64,000 nt of DNA from Planctomycetota bacterium (GTDB lineage Bacteria; Planctomycetota; UBA8742; UBA2392): the NCBI GenBank assembly GCA_020849795.1, contig JADZFR010000044.1, positions 62,001-126,000 of the forward strand, read 5' to 3'. The notes beneath the pieces were generated by a model. It made no database searches. It was not told the DNA's origin and saw nothing but the letters and a program-made list of their open reading frames with translations. The position numbers were made by a program, and so were the translations under genes. Below, piece after piece: positions 21,516 through 58,269 of this stretch (its first letter is position 1; each line of letters starts with the position of its first letter).

Positions 21516-21590
21516 TGGTTCGCGGGGAACGATTCAAACGTTCATTTCCGGGTCCAGAGCCCGGCGTCCTATCCGTTGGACGACCCGCGA
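21516..21590 (-). tRNA. tRNA-Gln(CUG)
   Basis: Acceptor TCGCGGG/CCCGCGA, A73 and encoded CCA; D-arm GTCC...GGAC with GG in the loop; anticodon arm CCGGG-CTCTGGA-CCCGG gives CUG. T-loop is TTTGAAT, so conserved C56 is replaced by T. It separates the HNH gene from tRNA-Trp. Confidence 0.8.
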
Positions 21591-21616
21591 GTGCAGGGGT
21601 GCCGCACGCGGCACCC

Positions 21617-22225
21617 CTACTTTGCCTCTACCTGCTCCTGCGCGGGGCCGAGGAACGGCGCCCACGCCGGCTGTGACGTTACGCCGCGCAGCAGCAGTGT
21701 CTCGCGCGTCGGCTGCTGCGGCGTTGCCTGCAGGTGCATCTCGGCCTCGCGCGGCGTGCGGTCTGCCTTGCGATGATTGCAGCGCGCGCACGCCAGCACG
21801 CAGTTGCCCCACGTAGTCACACCGCCGCGCGACACCGGCACCACGTGGTCCAGCGTCATGTCGCGCTTGTGCACGACCGCGTCGCAGTACTGGCAGCGGC
21901 CGTTGTCGCGCTCGTAAACGCCGCGGCGCGAGAACGGCACGCCGGCGTTTGGATAGCCGGCGAACTTGGCCAGTGTAATCACCTGCGGAATGCGCACCTG
22001 CATGGCAGCCGTGCGGATGTAATCCGCCTCAATCACATGTGCGTCCGCCGGCACGGCACGCTCGGTCAGCCACTGCTCCCAGGTGAACATCTGGTAGGTC
22101 TGGGGACATACGATGCGCGCGCGGCCGCGCGACACCAGCACCAGTGCGCGGCGCAGTACTAGCGTGGTGAGCGGCTGCCAGACCCGGTTGAGGGTCAGTA
22201 CGCGCTCAAGCTCAATGCGGGTCAT
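21617..22225 (-). CDS. HNH endonuclease embedded in tRNA array
   Basis: 202 residues from the ATG at 22225, which follows an AGAGGAGACGCC site. The N-terminal half matches a widespread stand-alone HNH family (VLTLNRVWQPLTTLVLRRAL, LVSRGRARIV). The nuclease core is complete: CQYCDAVV zinc pair, LDHVVPVSRGG (catalytic His), a central Asn in TWGNCV and CARCNHRK as the second zinc pair. A small-substrate DNA or RNA nick activity is expected; the family's biological target is unknown. It is co-directional with and only 26 bp downstream of tRNA-Met, and 26 bp before tRNA-Gln, so it lies inside the array. A role in array mobility or in RNA cleavage/repair is inference. Confidence 0.88.
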   Translation of the reverse strand: MTRIELERVLTLNRVWQPLTTLVLRRALVLVSRGRARIVCPQTYQMFTWEQWLTERAVPADAHVIEADYIRTAAMQVRIPQVITLAKFAGYPNAGVPFSRRGVYERDNGRCQYCDAVVHKRDMTLDHVVPVSRGGVTTWGNCVLACARCNHRKADRTPREAEMHLQATPQQPTRETLLLRGVTSQPAWAPFLGPAQEQVEAK

Positions 22226-22251
22226 GGCGTCTCCTCTCTGGTACTGGTGGT

Positions 22252-22324
22252 TGGTGGCGGCGGAGGGAGTTGAACCCTCGAGCCCGGGATTATGAATCCC
22301 GGCTGCGCACCGGCGCGCGCCGCG
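22252..22324 (-). tRNA. tRNA-Met(CAU), initiator-like end, miniature D-arm
   Basis: Acceptor CGCGGCG/CGCCGCC leaves C1-C72 unpaired, which recalls the C1-A72 mismatch of initiator tRNAs; A73 and CCA are encoded. Anticodon arm CGGGA-TTCATAA-TCCCG gives CAU; T-loop TTCAACT is normal. The D-arm is only GCGC-CGGT-GCGC (4-nt loop). The anticodon stem lacks the three G-C pairs of true initiators, so the charging and role are uncertain; Ile(k2CAU) is an alternative. Confidence 0.7.
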
Positions 22325-22330
22325 AAAAGT

Positions 22331-22405
22331 TGGTCCGCCCGGTGGGGATTGCACCCACATCTCCGCGGGTAAGAACCGCGTGCTCTGGCGTTGAGCTACA
22401 GGCGA
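22331..22405 (-). tRNA. tRNA-Lys(CUU), odd T-loop
   Basis: Acceptor TCGCCTG/CGGGCGG with wobble pairs, A73, CCA encoded; D-arm GCTC...GAGC but the loop has GC instead of GG; anticodon arm CGCGG-TTCTTAC-CCGCG gives CUU. The T-loop is TGCAATC, with G at position 55, normally invariant U. It lies 1 nt from tRNA-Thr. Confidence 0.75.
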
Positions 22406-22406
22406 A

Positions 22407-22480
22407 TGGAGCCGCCGGCGGGAGTTCAACCCGCGCCGCGCCGCTACGAGGGGCGCATCCTGGCGTTAGACGACAGCGGC
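22407..22480 (-). tRNA. tRNA-Thr(CGU), swapped 19-56 pair
   Basis: Acceptor GCCGCTG/CGGCGGC, T73, CCA encoded; D-stem GTCT/GGAT; loop AACGCCA has C at position 19; T-loop TTGAACT has G at 56, so the tertiary G19-C56 pair is replaced by C19-G56. The anticodon stem CGCCC-CTCGTAG-CGGCG has a C-C mismatch next to the loop; anticodon CGU. Same anticodon as the canonical Thr gene at 14057. Confidence 0.7.
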
Positions 22481-22481
22481 C

Positions 22482-22555
22482 TGGTTCCCGGTGGGTGAAT
22501 CGAACACCCGTCACTTGTTTGTAAGACAAGGGCCCTGCCATTGGACGAACCGGGA
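22482..22555 (-). tRNA. tRNA-Val(UAC)
   Basis: Acceptor TCCCGGT/ACCGGGA, A73, CCA encoded; D-arm GTCC-AATGGCA-GGGC; anticodon arm CTTGT-CTTACAA-ACAAG gives UAC; T-loop TTCGATT. Structurally normal apart from a short D-loop. Confidence 0.9.
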
Positions 22556-22560
22556 GAATC

Positions 22561-22635
22561 TGGTCGCGGAGGTGGGATTCGAACCCACGGTCTCTTGCTC
22601 CCGGGGCAAGCGTCCGGCCTCTGGACTACTCCGCG
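22561..22635 (-). tRNA. tRNA-Pro(CGG) with C33
   Basis: Acceptor CGCGGAG/CTCCGCG, A73, CCA encoded; D-arm GTCC-AGAGGCC-GGAC; anticodon arm CTTGC-CCCGGGA-GCAAG gives CGG with G37 as expected for Pro, but position 33 is C rather than the near-universal U. T-loop TTCGAAT is normal. Confidence 0.82.
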
Positions 22636-22691
22636 AAAGTCCGCGCCGGAAGACGCGGGAGCCCGCAGCTTCCGCAGCGGGGTTTCAGTAA

Positions 22692-22766
22692 TGGTGAGCG
22701 TACGGGGAATCGAACCCCGACCTTCTGATTGAGAATCAGAGATCCTGGCCGTTAGACGATACGCCC
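22692..22766 (-). tRNA. tRNA-Glu(CUC)
   Basis: Acceptor GGGCGTA/TACGCTC, A73, CCA encoded; D-arm GTCT-AACGGCCA-GGAT; anticodon arm TCTGA-TTCTCAA-TCAGA gives CUC; T-loop TTCGATT. Canonical. Confidence 0.93.
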
Positions 22767-22771
22767 GATAT

Positions 22772-22846
22772 TGGCGACCCCACGGGGAGTTGAACCCCGA
22801 TCTCCCGATAGACAATCGGGCATCGTAGCCGTTGGACCATGGGGCC
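22772..22846 (-). tRNA. tRNA-Asp(GUC)
   Basis: Acceptor GGCCCCA/TGGGGTC with G73 (Asp identity), CCA encoded; anticodon arm CCCGA-TTGTCTA-TCGGG gives GUC; T-loop TTCAACT; D-stem has one C-C mismatch. Confidence 0.9.
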
Positions 22847-22877
22847 CCAGCGCAGGCGCCTCGCCCGCGCCACACAT

Positions 22878-22951
22878 TGGTAGAGACACGTGGAGTCGAA
22901 CCACGATCGGTCGATTATCAATCGACTGCTCTGCCCTTGAGCTATGCCTCT
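22878..22951 (-). tRNA. tRNA-Ile(GAU)
   Basis: Acceptor AGAGGCA/TGTCTCT, A73, CCA encoded; D-arm GCTC-AAGGGCA-GAGC; anticodon arm GTCGA-TTGATAA-TCGAC gives GAU; T-loop TTCGACT. Canonical. Confidence 0.93.
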
Positions 22952-22955
22952 GAAT

Positions 22956-23030
22956 TGGCTGGCTCGGCAGGATTCGAACCTGCATCACAAGCTCCGCAAG
23001 CTTGCGTCCTCTCCCTTAGACGACGAGCCA
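22956..23030 (-). tRNA. tRNA-Arg(GCG)
   Basis: Acceptor TGGCTCG/CGAGCCA, G73, CCA encoded; D-arm GTCT-AAGGGAGA-GGAC; anticodon arm CAAGC-TTGCGGA-GCTTG gives GCG; T-loop TTCGAAT. Bacteria normally read CGN codons with an ACG (inosine) tRNA, so GCG is an unusual Arg anticodon. Confidence 0.85.
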
Positions 23031-23035
23031 AAGTT

Positions 23036-23110
23036 TGGTGGACCGGCTGGGAGTTCAACCCAGTCTGCGTGCTTGCAAGGCACGCGTGCTCGCGTTGACA
23101 CTACCGGCCC
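23036..23110 (-). tRNA. tRNA-Ala(UGC), swapped 19-56 pair
   Basis: Acceptor GGGCCGG/CCGGTCC contains G3-U70, the Ala identity pair; A73, CCA encoded; anticodon arm CGTGC-CTTGCAA-GCACG gives UGC. D-loop has GC in place of GG and the T-loop is TTGAACT, giving a compensated C19-G56 pair as in the array's tRNA-Thr. Confidence 0.85.
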
Positions 23111-23173
23111 TGGGTATTGTGTCCGCCTTGGCCGGGGCTTCGGCGGACAGTTGCCGCGCCTTTGCGCAGCAAC

Positions 23174-23248
23174 TGGAGCCCCCGGGCGGAATCGAACCGA
23201 CCGTCCCCTGACTGGCAATCAGGAATTCTGCCACTGAACCACGAGGGC
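23174..23248 (-). tRNA. tRNA-Gly(GCC)
   Basis: Acceptor GCCCTCG/CGGGGGC, T73 (Gly identity), CCA encoded; D-arm GTTC-AGTGGCA-GAAT; anticodon arm CCTGA-TTGCCAG-TCAGG gives GCC; T-loop TTCGATT, with one T-C mismatch in the T-stem. Confidence 0.88.
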
Positions 23249-23277
23249 TTTGCATTTCGACGCAGTTGTCAAAGAAG

Positions 23278-23351
23278 TGGTGTGCCGGCGTGGACTTGAA
23301 CCACGATCTCCGCGGCTTCAACGCGGCGCTCTACCGTTGAGCCACCGGCAC
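23278..23351 (-). tRNA. tRNA-Phe(GAA)
   Basis: Acceptor GTGCCGG/CCGGCAC, A73, CCA encoded; D-arm GCTC-AACGGTA-GAGC; anticodon arm CCGCG-TTGAAGC-CGCGG gives GAA; T-loop TTCAAGT. 1 nt from tRNA-His. Confidence 0.92.
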
Positions 23352-23352
23352 A

Positions 23353-23425
23353 TGGGTGCGGGCGCGGGCTCGAACCGCCCCTTCGCTTTCACAGAGCGAC
23401 ATGCATCCACTACACCAACCCGCAC
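23353..23425 (-). tRNA. tRNA-His(GUG)
   Basis: First tRNA of the array. Acceptor TGCGGGT/GCCCGCA with G-1 opposite C73 (the His identity pair), CCA encoded; anticodon arm TCGCT-CTGTGAA-AGCGA gives GUG; T-loop TTCGAGC. The T-stem has only four clean pairs. Confidence 0.88.
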
Positions 23426-25953: not shown

Positions 25954-26895
25954 TCAGGCCGCCAGTTCATTCAGCAGCCGGCGCCACGACTCTTGCTCTC
26001 GCGACGGATCCACGAGCGGGCGCCTCGCGTCGCAACGCGCCTTCAACTCTGCGTAGAATGAGGCATCTGTGGACGCGCGCTGCAACAGGCTCGCCAGGGC
26101 CTTCGTGTCACCCACGTCGAACAGGCCGGGATAGTTCTCGTCCATGATGCCGAGCGCCGCGCCCATGCGGCTGAGCAGCACCGGCGTGCCGCAAGCGATA
26201 GCCTCGGTCAGTACGTTTGCACCGCCTTCCATGATCGACGTCAGTACCATCAGGTGCGACGAGGCCAGGACATTCAGCGTTTCTTCGCGTGTAACTTCGC
26301 CGCGCCACATGTAGCGAGGGTTGGTGCGCATCTCGTGCTCGGCGCGGGCGCGCATCTCGGGGTCCAGCGCGCTGCCCAATTGGACTAGGCGAACGCGCGA
26401 ATCGGCAGGCAACAGGCGCAGCGCTTCGGCTGCACGAAACGGGTCCTTCACCTCTCGCAGGTGCCCGATCACGCACGCCCGGAAGTGATCTGAGGGTCGT
26501 GACGGCGCGTCGGCTGGCGCAACGGCCGACTGGTAAATCACATGGGCGCGCGCGCGGTGCTCGGGCGCCAGTTGTGTAAGCGCGTGCGGTTGCAGCACGA
26601 CAAATCGATCGGCGAGCCGCACCGACAACTGCGCCTCTTCGTCCGTTTGCAGATCGCGGTAGATGTCGGTGCCGGTAAGGGCCAGCACGATGGGCCGGTT
26701 GGGAAACTCGGCCTTGAACCTCAGGATCTCGGGATGGCTGTGCTTTGCGTGCAGCGCGACCAGCACATCGGCGTCGTGGTCGACAAGCGTGTGTCCCAGT
26801 TGCCCGAATATGTCGGCCCAGCGGTCGGCCGTGATGCCGTTGCCGCGGCGCGTGTGGCTGAACGGCGTGTGCAGCTGAATCTTCAAAGCGCGCAT
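25954..26895 (-). CDS. senB: Selenosugar synthase SenB-like glycosyltransferase (TIGR04348 type)
   Basis: 313 residues, GT-B-like glycosyltransferase. The opening IQLHTPFSHTRRGNGITADR and the C-terminal SIMEGGANVLTEAIACGTPV are characteristic of the TIGR04348 group, to which the selenosugar synthase SenB belongs. SenB makes a seleno-sugar from selenophosphate and a UDP-sugar, the first step to selenoneine. Its start overlaps the end of the SenA-like gene by 13 nt, so the two form an operon. The selenophosphate synthetase partner (SenC/SelD) is not in the window. Family assignment is strong; the selenium role rests on the pairing with SenA. Confidence 0.85.
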   Translation of the reverse strand: MRALKIQLHTPFSHTRRGNGITADRWADIFGQLGHTLVDHDADVLVALHAKHSHPEILRFKAEFPNRPIVLALTGTDIYRDLQTDEEAQLSVRLADRFVVLQPHALTQLAPEHRARAHVIYQSAVAPADAPSRPSDHFRACVIGHLREVKDPFRAAEALRLLPADSRVRLVQLGSALDPEMRARAEHEMRTNPRYMWRGEVTREETLNVLASSHLMVLTSIMEGGANVLTEAIACGTPVLLSRMGAALGIMDENYPGLFDVGDTKALASLLQRASTDASFYAELKARCDARRPLVDPSREQESWRRLLNELAA

Positions 26896-50841: not shown

Positions 50842-50979
50842 CGTTTGTGGAAGGTCGGCGCCTGCCATTGCGAATGTGACAATTTCGTGGCAATTGTAAC
50901 TCCGGATTTGCTTTGCATCTCAACTGGCGTGGATAAACTGGTTCCGGTGCACTTGCTGGGTCACCCGAAGAGGACAACC

Positions 50980-51942
50980 ATGAAACGAAATCTGCTGATG
51001 GGCGCAGCCTTGCTCGGCGCATTTGCGCTGGCTGGCGTGTTTGCGCAACCGCTTGCCGGGCAGTGATGAGGCGGAGGCGGCGGAGGCGGTGCCTCCGGTG
51101 GTGGTAGCGGCCCGAAATCGAGCTCGGGTGGCGCGGCGAAAGCTGCACTGAACAAGGACAAGTACAAAGAAGGCTCAGGCGCCGGCAAGGGCAAGAAAAG
51201 CTGGGGCGGCGAGAGCGGCGACGCGGTCATTCCTCCCGAGGAATTGATCGAGTGGAAGGTCGCCAAGATCGACAAGATCGAAGAGTACCAGAAGAAAAAG
51301 AAGCCGCTGGTCCTGTTCTTCATGGAAGAGGACATGGACGCCGTTGACGGCTCGCGCCAGGTTCATGATGCCGAGCTGGCCAAGATGGCCAAGAGCGGCG
51401 ACGCAGTCTTTCTGTTGATCGAGTACAACGGCGACCGCACACCAAGCCTGAATACAGGCTCGCCGATCCCGACCAGCAAGCTCGCAAGCCCCAACCCGGC
51501 CCGCGACTACAACGTCAGCAAGTACCCGACGCTGCTGGTATGCGATTACCACGGCAACGAGTTCGGGCGCTTTGACAAGGCACCCCAGGCCAAGGACGTC
51601 AAGTCCAAGCTGGATGGCCTCAACGACAGCATCGAGGCCATGGAGCAGAAACTGCGCAAGAACCTGGATGCAGCCAAGGCCAGCCTGGAAAAGAACGACC
51701 TGCGCAACTTCTTCAAGACGATCTTCAAGAACTTTGGTGAAGGCATCATCGGCTTGAAGGCGCAGGAGGAAGGCATCAAGGTCTATCGCGAACTTCTCGA
51801 CAAAACTCGCGACGAGATCGACACGATTCTTGAGGACCGACCCAAGGATGGCGAATCTCGCCTGAAGGCCCTGTCGAAGAACTTCCGCGACACCGAGTTG
51901 CGCAAAGAAATCGACGACGCACTGGCCATCATCAAGGGTTAG
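50980..51942 (+). CDS. Predicted secreted selenoprotein with tandem Sec-Sec and thioredoxin-like domain
   Basis: 320 residues if two consecutive TGA codons (51064-51069) are read as selenocysteine. AGAGGA precedes the ATG at 50980, and residues 1-22 are a signal peptide (MKRNLLMGAALLGAFALAGV). Sec29-Sec30 are followed in the same frame by a Gly run (GGGGGGASGGGSG) and a thioredoxin-like domain (KKKKPLVLFFMEEDMDAVDG, VSKYPTLLVCDYHGNEFG) that has a cis-Pro segment but no CxxC. The frame stays open from 51070 to the TAG at 51942, and a helical C-terminal part (GLNDSIEAMEQKLRKNLDAA) completes it. A shorter start at 51244 would drop the export signal and Gly linker. A frame-disrupting mutation is the alternative. 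Confidence 0.65.
51067..51097 (+). promoter_or_regulatory. Candidate bacterial SECIS hairpin
   Basis: Stem CGGAGGC (51081-51087) / GCCTCCG (51091-51097) with loop GGT. The loop begins 21 nt after the first TGA and 18 nt after the second, and has G in its first two positions, which fits the bacterial SECIS consensus as I know it. The Gly-rich coding makes GC hairpins easy by chance, so it is supportive only. Confidence 0.45.
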
Positions 51943-55161: not shown

Positions 55162-55995
55162 CTAGTCGAGCATATCCACAAGATCGGCCAGTGAGGCCGG
55201 TTCCGGGGTGATGCCTGCTGCCATCGCAGGCGTAGCGCCGTGAAGGCTCTTGTGAACGCGGCAGAAGTTGTAGTTGAAGAAGTGAAGCGCGACGGCATGG
55301 GCCAGGTTTTCGGCCTTCTTGGAAAACGCATTGGTCAAGCGCGTGAAGCGCCTCATGCTCATACGCATGGTTAGGTTCTGGCGCTCGACAAACGACGTGC
55401 TGACGTGCTTCTTGTCGGGGAAGCCACACACTTGCGTCTTGCGCGTCCCGCAACATTCGCCGGGGCTATAGCGGGCTTCCGGCTTGAGGTTGTGCGGATC
55501 GTCCCCGTACAGCTTCACAAGTTGCGCGTAGTCCACTTCCCCACCGAATGCATCTTCAACCGCTGACAGATAAGCCTTGTGGCCGTCCGTAGTCAGTTGC
55601 ACGCGATGCGCCAGACGTGAAGCCAAGTCCTGCATGAACTCGGTAGCACAACCAGCGTCCCGCGTTCCGATCAACCAGCAGGGAACCAACTTCGTTTCAG
55701 CGTCGATAGCAGTCCACGTCCACACGTCGCCTACGCCTTGTCCTTTGCGTTCGGCGGGGACGTTCTTTTCCTTCATGCCCACGAACGACCAGATTTCGTC
55801 GCACTGGATGCGCTTCAACTTGAGGTTGGTCATGGTGCGCTCGTTGAACTCAAGCGCGGCCTTGCCAGCGTCAACCAGCAGCTTCGTAACGGTGTTAATC
55901 GAAACTCCGGCCATGCGCGTGACGGCCCGCATTGAAACACCCTCAACCAGTGCCGTGAGGATTTGGACGCGCTTCTCTTTGGGTAGCTTGTTCAT
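55162..55995 (-). CDS. IS1-family DDE transposase
   Basis: 277 residues in one frame, start ATG at 55995. N-terminal helix-turn-helix (KRVQILTALVEGVSMRAVTR, SINTVTKLLVDAGKA) and DDE catalytic domain: first Asp in QCDEIWSFVGMKEKNV, second in LTTDGHKAYLSAV, Glu in TSFVERQNLTMRMSMRRFTR, and the ending FFNYNFCRVHKSLHG. The single-frame form fits the non-enterobacterial IS1 group; IS1595-type is a less likely alternative. 40 bp after the unknown cargo gene. Confidence 0.92.
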   Translation of the reverse strand: MNKLPKEKRVQILTALVEGVSMRAVTRMAGVSINTVTKLLVDAGKAALEFNERTMTNLKLKRIQCDEIWSFVGMKEKNVPAERKGQGVGDVWTWTAIDAETKLVPCWLIGTRDAGCATEFMQDLASRLAHRVQLTTDGHKAYLSAVEDAFGGEVDYAQLVKLYGDDPHNLKPEARYSPGECCGTRKTQVCGFPDKKHVSTSFVERQNLTMRMSMRRFTRLTNAFSKKAENLAHAVALHFFNYNFCRVHKSLHGATPAMAAGITPEPASLADLVDMLD

Positions 55996-56089
55996 ACTGA
56001 TAAGTATGCTTGACCGCTCAAGCATAGTCAAGCACAAATGCAGAATAGCCCGCGAGGGGCTAGGCGTAAGGTTTTGCGGGGATGGGCGG

Positions 56090-57537: not shown

Positions 57538-58183
57538 GGCCCCTCAGGGGCCGTAAGACCCCAGCCCGGCCCGTAAGGGCCGGGTACTGATTGGCGTGTA
57601 GCGATTAGGCCCGCAAGGGCCGACAGACTCAAACAAGGTCGCGCTCATCCATCATCATTCCGTTCTTGGCAAGGAACTCGCGCAATTCGTCGGCGAAGAA
57701 CTTGTGGGCGTGGTGCGCATCCTGTGCCTGGATGTAGCGGATCGTCTCATCCACCCGGTTTTCACTGACACTGAACGCCGCATATCCCTCTTGCCAAGCG
57801 AACTTTTCCCTAAAGTCGGACTGCTCATTTATCCATCCAGACGAGTTTGACTTCAACTTGTTCACCGCTTCTGAAACGGCGATTGTCGGAGGCAGTTGAA
57901 CAAACAGATGCACATGATCCGCGACGCCGCCGATCTGGATTGGAGTCCCTTTCAGGTTGCGTGTGATGCCGCCAAGGTATTCGTGCATGCGTTGCGACCA
58001 AACGCCGGCAAGCAGGGGGGTGCGCTCTTTTGTCGAGTAAACAATGTGATAAAGAAGCCGAGTGTATGTGTGCCCCATGACGTGCGGCCCGTTTTCTGTC
58101 GGCCCTGACGGGCCTTGGGTTGATGAGAATATGCTACCCGGCCCTTACGGGCCGGGCTACGGTCTTACGGCCCCTGCGGGGCC
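57538..58183. mobile_element. REP/RAYT element with flanking palindromes
   Basis: The RAYT gene at 57629-58078 is bracketed by inverted arrays of palindromes. Left: GGCCCCTCAGGGGCC (57538-57552), CCCGGCCC-GTAA-GGGCCGGG (57565-57584), GGCCCGCAAGGGCC. Right, in mirrored order: GGCCCTGACGGGCC, CCCGGCCC-TTAC-GGGCCGGG (58137-58156), GGCCCCTGCGGGGCC (58169-58183). This is the arrangement of a REPtron-like unit: REP-type hairpins that the RAYT can act on. Confidence 0.8.
57629..58078 (-). CDS. REP-associated tyrosine transposase (Y1/IS200-like)
   Basis: 149 residues. TnpA_REP/Y1 family: IVYSTKERTPLLAG, catalytic His-x-His in VADHVHLFVQLPP, and the conserved EKFAWQEGYAAFSVSENRVD block with the transferring Tyr later in ETIRYIQAQDAHH. 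Short relative to RAYTs (about 165-200), near the size of IS200 TnpA. Cuts and joins single-stranded DNA at palindromes. It is flanked by the REP-like hairpins described above. Confidence 0.93.
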   Translation of the reverse strand: MGHTYTRLLYHIVYSTKERTPLLAGVWSQRMHEYLGGITRNLKGTPIQIGGVADHVHLFVQLPPTIAVSEAVNKLKSNSSGWINEQSDFREKFAWQEGYAAFSVSENRVDETIRYIQAQDAHHAHKFFADELREFLAKNGMMMDERDLV

Positions 58184-58269
58184 TCACATGCAATGACAGC
58201 TGAGGCCTTGAAAGCGCGTGTTCTGCGCAACTCCGCCGCTTGCGGTAAACACGCGTTCAGAACTTACAC

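Follow-up and report, generated by a model that had tools for sequence, protein, structure and literature searches.

Two consecutive in-frame TGA codons interrupt a gene in a 64,000-nucleotide stretch of planctomycete DNA (contig JADZFR010000044.1, positions 62,001 to 126,000; hereafter the window). The question raised by this locus is whether they end a short reading frame or whether, as proposed in the original prediction, both are decoded as selenocysteine (Sec, U), joining a signal peptide to a thioredoxin-like domain in a single selenoprotein.

The Gene and Its Product

Read through, the gene occupies positions 50980–51942 of the window on the plus strand. From an ATG at 50980 it meets TGA TGA at 51064–51069 and then remains open to the true stop, a TAG at 51940–51942, which gives 320 residues; both the coordinates and the open frame agree with the original description of a TGA pair lying between a signal peptide and a thioredoxin-like domain. 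The parts follow one another as signal peptide, TGA TGA, glycine-rich linker, thioredoxin-like domain without CxxC, and TAG. A ribosome-binding site, AAGAGG, with five of six matches to AGGAGG, is found 6 nt 5' of the ATG (50968–50973). The signal peptide, MKRNLLMGAALLGAFALAGVFAQPLAG (50980–51060), has the pattern common to most homologues, K/R, a hydrophobic segment and AQPL(A/S); the protein is presumably exported, and cleavage would take place after ..LAG, just before Q-U-U. With TGA translated as Sec, the product reads MKRNLLMGAALLGAFALAGVFAQPLAGQ-UU-GGGGGGGASGGG and continues into a folded domain. The first UGA (51064–51066; proposed Sec29) is identified from the reading frame and from its conservation in two alignments, A2 and A1, and the second (51067–51069; proposed Sec30) from the frame and from homologues, among which the UC relatives have Cys at this place.

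An AlphaFold2 model of the protein, for which 59 relatives were used, has high confidence for residues from about 81 to 320 and is disordered before. The glycine-rich linker (51070–51219), which also holds a SECIS-like hairpin, belongs to the disordered part, with pLDDT below 50 for most of residues 1–79. It is followed by a degenerate thioredoxin-like domain (51220–51618; pLDDT about 85–97) and a C-terminal helical region (51619–51939). The best Foldseek match is DsbH (2ju5; E 2.3e-5), with further matches to YbbN and thioredoxins, and the predicted DsbH/thioredoxin-like fold covers residues 81–213. On the model and these matches the protein is assigned to the thioredoxin fold, while sequence and alignment reveal no CxxC, UxxC or CxxU in residues 81–320, which places it outside the thioredoxin family proper. 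A thioredoxin-like fold lacking its own CxxC is what had been claimed. From DsbH and the thioredoxins (Thioredoxin_7, Thioredox_DsbH), the protein also differs by having its putative redox residues in a disordered tail, by its extra C-terminal helices and by scores below the Pfam cut-offs. It has no match over cut-off in Pfam and none in NCBIfam, and other family members give weak, scattered matches only.

The window copy is located between an isochorismatase-like gene and the gene of a PPC-domain protein, an arrangement kept in several relatives. Nearby, a minus-strand ORF (55162–56037) resembles, by eye only, an IS1-type transposase. The window also contains about a dozen closely packed tRNA genes (21519–23424, minus strand) and a match to the Acido-Lenti-1 RNA (58137–58184, plus strand; 39.8 bits against a gathering score of 37). 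The orthologue of the gene in genome G014 (L037; G014:C1:2210361-2211345) appears frame-shifted, possibly through assembly error or decay.

Selenium Use by the Genome

All four genes of the Sec machinery that were looked for are present in the genome: selA (E 1e-140), selB (333 bits, with SelB-specific domains), the tRNA-Sec gene selC, with anticodon TCA, and selD, which is itself Sec-containing, with an in-frame UGA at GAGUGCKL. A senB-like gene (TIGR04348 by family match; window 25969–26868, minus strand; G000:C44:87969-88868) is not part of the protein considered here and is independent evidence that the genome uses selenium; it is one half of the senAB pair on which the original prediction had relied.

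A Multigene Family with Sec/Cys Alternation

The 16 genomes of the same GTDB family that were covered all have relatives, 3–8 copies per genome, and about 70 of these related genes were read. In 58 of these genes a UGA directly follows the signal peptide, mostly as UU or UC and in some cases as UxxU, single U or CU, and the motif comes at once, as in AQPLAAQ-UU and AQPLSAG-UC. The 68 rows used for the tree comprise 23 UU, 22 UC, 5 with two spaced U, 3 with a single U, 1 CU, 7 with Cys and 7 with neither residue. The last group, without Sec or Cys at the site, suggests that the scaffold has a role without the tail as well. The first UGA position is Sec or Cys in 14 of 14 sequences of the A2 alignment and at least 90% conserved in A1, and both positions of the pair are always U or C in A2. 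In-frame UGAs are conserved between species together with the flanking sequence on both sides, and identical TGA positions were seen in six genera. The TGA pair is not a chance occurrence, as it is found at the same place in the G001 orthologue (75% identical) and in many others. Among the homologues read, none has the region split into two genes with real stops.

Exchange between the two residues has been frequent. The tree requires 14 changes for UU and 13 for UC, at least 11 of each on well supported branches, and one UU protein (L032) and one UC protein (L045) are 93% identical. Sec sites in selenoproteins are expected to undergo such repeated Sec/Cys exchange at a fixed place; stop codons are not. 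In other paralogues (L032:5819-6739, L047:9856-10782, L050:12428-13384), a Cys-rich N-terminal tail (CSGGGCGG...CPSGGCPSG) replaces UU. A further branch of 12 loci (L129 in G000:C54, L130–L139 and L148) has Sec at three constant positions, UxSU...TUGQ, and the genome of the window contains one such triple-Sec gene (L129:2951-3754).

Searching genome contigs with the single window protein gave no match, and searching them with the family alignment gave matches in Planctomycetota genomes, for instance ACE_PLA33, H3_PLA7, FR_29 and HKST-UBA88; the named genomes with relatives are all metagenome-assembled. Outside the GTDB family, G016, of the same order, has AGUGAGGC, G051 has AGUCPGGGG, and several other planctomycete genomes encode a signal peptide followed by TCGGGGGG and a related domain, as Cys versions (TCGGGGG...). 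Loci L142–L146, from other planctomycetes, encode predicted exported proteins starting TCGGGGGGG, with a related C-terminal domain, and are Cys counterparts. The matches outside the family, obtained in the genome search with the A2 alignment, are remote, most with E values of 1.8e-9 to 3.5e-6, and the G051 row forms a very long branch on the tree; their homology is likely, and less secure in view of these two features. Homologues with Cys at the Sec positions, for which the original prediction had proposed to look, are of three kinds: the UC relatives, the CSGG paralogues and the distant TCGGGG homologues.

A SECIS-Like Hairpin Anchored at the Last UGA

In the bacterial SECIS model, the hairpin loop is placed 16–37 nt downstream, with G in its first two positions (PMC13188914). 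The window gene has a 7-bp hairpin, CGGAGGC-GGU-GCCUCCG (51081–51097), that begins 11 nt past the second TGA and whose GGU loop (51088–51090) starts 18 nt after the second UGA and 21 nt after the first, exactly as originally described. It agrees with the model at both spacings, and its folding z-score is −3.1. GGAGGC is present twice, so that the minimum-free-energy structure of the window copy is in a slightly shifted register; covariation across relatives settles the register and strengthens the match to a bacterial SECIS.

Across the family, triloop stems of at least 7 bp peak 18 nt after the end of UU or after a single U (21 genes), with at most 5 genes at any other offset. UxxU genes are among those with an offset of 27 nt, a distance counted from the first U; counted from the last U, it becomes 18 nt. 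With 54 unselected genes aligned on their last UGA, standard pairing was seen in 71% of cells in register, against 41–59% when the columns were slid by 1–3 and 54.6 ± 1.8% after shuffling. In 25 genes chosen for a stem, 97% of cells pair, and 33 double-sided changes were counted, against 10.5 in shuffled and 2–8 in slid alignments; as this set was picked for having the stem, the unselected set is the fairer test. Some of the stems use rather different codons, such as GUUCCUCC-GGU-GGGGGAAC in L043 versus GCGGAGGC-GGU-GCCUCCGG in the window gene. No such hairpin was found in the 7 Cys paralogues, whose mean stem is 3.4 bp versus 6.5 bp. With a synonymous-codon null, 17 of 58 single hairpins reached p<0.05; this test discriminates weakly because Gly, Ala and Ser codons favor such stems, and the case for a SECIS therefore rests on position, covariation and the contrast with the Cys paralogues.

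Among single-Sec relatives, spacings of 18 nt (L036, L038, L052) and of 21 nt (L045, L047, L048, L053) are both used, so that each UGA of the pair stands at a spacing used in the family. In each of the 12 triple-Sec loci, one hairpin can be drawn after U2 and another after U3, the U2 hairpin having only 4–5 bp in some. Taken with the placement in UU genes, this suggests that adjacent UGAs share a hairpin and that distant ones have their own. Paralogues whose linker is short (e.g., L051:9676, L056:9998) have a weak candidate hairpin or one at a different place. The genome of the window was also scanned with a covariance model of the hairpin, a model that misses divergent copies (for instance the one in the paralogue at L032:4588), and convincing scores went to its two model members alone (53 and 50 bits); the next match (23 bits) contained no credible selenoprotein on inspection, and no further UU families were found this way. 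Scanning the family for the pattern TGATGA-N18-GGT returned mostly background matches.

Linkage to the sel Locus

In most genomes, 3–5 paralogues in a row directly precede selA, a glycosyltransferase gene and selC. Among the paralogue-array loci, selA is present in 15 of 16 and tRNA-Sec in 14 of the 15 scanned. On the other side of the array, 13 of 16 sel clusters have an Fe/Mn superoxide dismutase gene; it is divergent, beside the paralogue array and selA-selC, at L032:3777-4358 and at 12 other sel loci. After each of the 12 triple-Sec genes comes the gene of a protein that is predicted to be exported, resembles cytochrome c' and contains two CxxCH motifs (di-haem). The original prediction did not include the linkage of a multigene family to selA-selC, the UU/UC alternation or the triple-Sec subfamily.

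Proposed Mechanism and Alternative Readings

Taken together, the reading frame, the conservation, the covarying hairpin and the machinery make it very likely that Sec is inserted at both UGAs of an exported protein. SelB and tRNA-Sec would decode both codons, with one hairpin directing both; no bacterial precedent for one hairpin serving two adjacent UGAs was found in the open literature. Such decoding would be costly. In E. coli, single recoding was reported to be 30–40% efficient (PMC4513850), and two UGAs would then yield roughly 10–15% if independent. Export and removal of the signal peptide would give a mature protein starting Q-U-U-(G)n, whose flexible N-terminal tail would present two adjacent selenols ahead of a thioredoxin-like scaffold without CxxC. 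The tail may then act as a mobile redox center, Se-Se here and Se-S in the UC relatives, reacting with extracytoplasmic partners or oxidants. We somewhat favor this redox role, on account of the CxxC-less thioredoxin scaffold, the superoxide dismutase and cytochrome neighbors and the interchangeable U/C pair. A vicinal diselenide, as first proposed, may be the missing redox center; against this, a few paralogues carry neither of the two residues at that position. The whole would be a first bacterial Sec-Sec family with one SECIS for two adjacent UGAs (and separate hairpins for spaced ones, as in the triple-Sec branch), in which an exported, mobile, N-terminal vicinal diselenide serves as the redox center of the scaffold; we consider this composite reading somewhat better than even.

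Ranked second, and possible though clearly less probable, is that Sec is real and that the tail is a site for soft metals or metalloids (e.g., mercury, cadmium, silver, arsenic) or a selenium store, and not a redox catalyst. The pair has no strict spacing (UU, UC, UxxU, UxSU, UGGGGGU), the Cys paralogues are Cys-rich (CSGGGCSGGGCGSGG..CPSGGCPSG) and have the look of chelators, and metal-binding double selenoproteins are among the bacterial CU/UxxU families already known (PMC13188914). A redox role agrees better with the thioredoxin fold of the scaffold and with the conserved superoxide dismutase and di-haem cytochrome neighbors, and no metal-resistance genes were recognized among the recurrent neighbors scanned.

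It is improbable that only the second, SECIS-proximal UGA is Sec, the first being misread or bypassed, or that translation restarts downstream, to give a product with one Sec or none. While it is the last UGA that anchors the hairpins, conservation is higher at the first position, which is Sec in UU, UC and UxxU, and the 21-nt spacing is that of the four single-Sec relatives listed above. An in-frame TTG could open an ORF from 51244, but the linker is kept in frame from the signal peptide to the domain, and a downstream start is rejected.

That the TGAs are real stops, as translation table 11 has it by default, leaving a short signal-peptide ORF with another gene behind it, or a pseudogene in decay, is very improbable and is rejected in view of the TGA positions shared across six genera, the Cys found there in relatives, the SECIS covariation and the linkage to selA and selC. 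A lineage-specific code in which TGA stands for an ordinary amino acid, as several genes with in-frame TGAs might suggest, is rejected as next to impossible, since TGA is an ordinary stop in 19 of the 47 long ORFs of the window and dedicated Sec machinery is present. A Sec lipobox (LSAG-U) was also considered as a general explanation of the motif and rejected because Q or T precedes U/C in many members.

Relation to Known Selenoproteins

Mammalian thioredoxin reductase has a C-terminal Gly-Cys-Sec-Gly (GCUG) tail on a flavoenzyme. The protein described here resembles it in the mobile, Gly-flanked vicinal pair of Cys/Sec at a flexible terminus and in the similar mechanics proposed; it is unlike it in that its tail is N-terminal and it is predicted to be exported and has no flavin domain. 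A 2026 review catalogs 119 prokaryotic selenoprotein families and subfamilies, none of them with a UU motif (PMC13188914). Paired Sec/Sec or Cys/Sec is found in the bacterial UxxU/CU selenoproteins (Prx-like UxxU, NF041115 metal-binding UxxU, MbdU, SaoC and SaoL; PMC13188914), but none is listed with UU. As the catalog has no UU and the window protein matches no NCBIfam model, the family is called new, and its Sec-Sec arrangement is the first found for bacteria in the open literature. That tandem Sec-Sec is rare had been stated from the start, and the only precedent found in the open literature is the algal PDI_e, whose GUGUU motif is described by its authors as the first Sec-Sec (PMC7539508). 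PDI_e likewise has consecutive Sec-Sec in a protein of thioredoxin-like fold, and it is eukaryotic, belongs to the PDI family, has three Sec in GUGUU and uses a eukaryotic-type SECIS (PMC7539508), whereas the window protein is bacterial, with an N-terminal tail, a local in-frame bacterial SECIS and the motif QUUG.

Gene finders that treat TGA as a stop would truncate or split all genes of the family. What emerges is a previously unlisted selenoprotein family, with 3–8 copies per genome and genetic linkage to the Sec machinery, that would have expanded as an exported family within one family of Planctomycetota. Two questions become directly testable with its natural series, UU, UC, CU, UxxU, UxSU...U and CSGG, in which hairpins keep pace with the last UGA: whether two consecutive stop codons are recoded by one bacterial SECIS, and what advantage an exported vicinal selenol pair may have over Cys.
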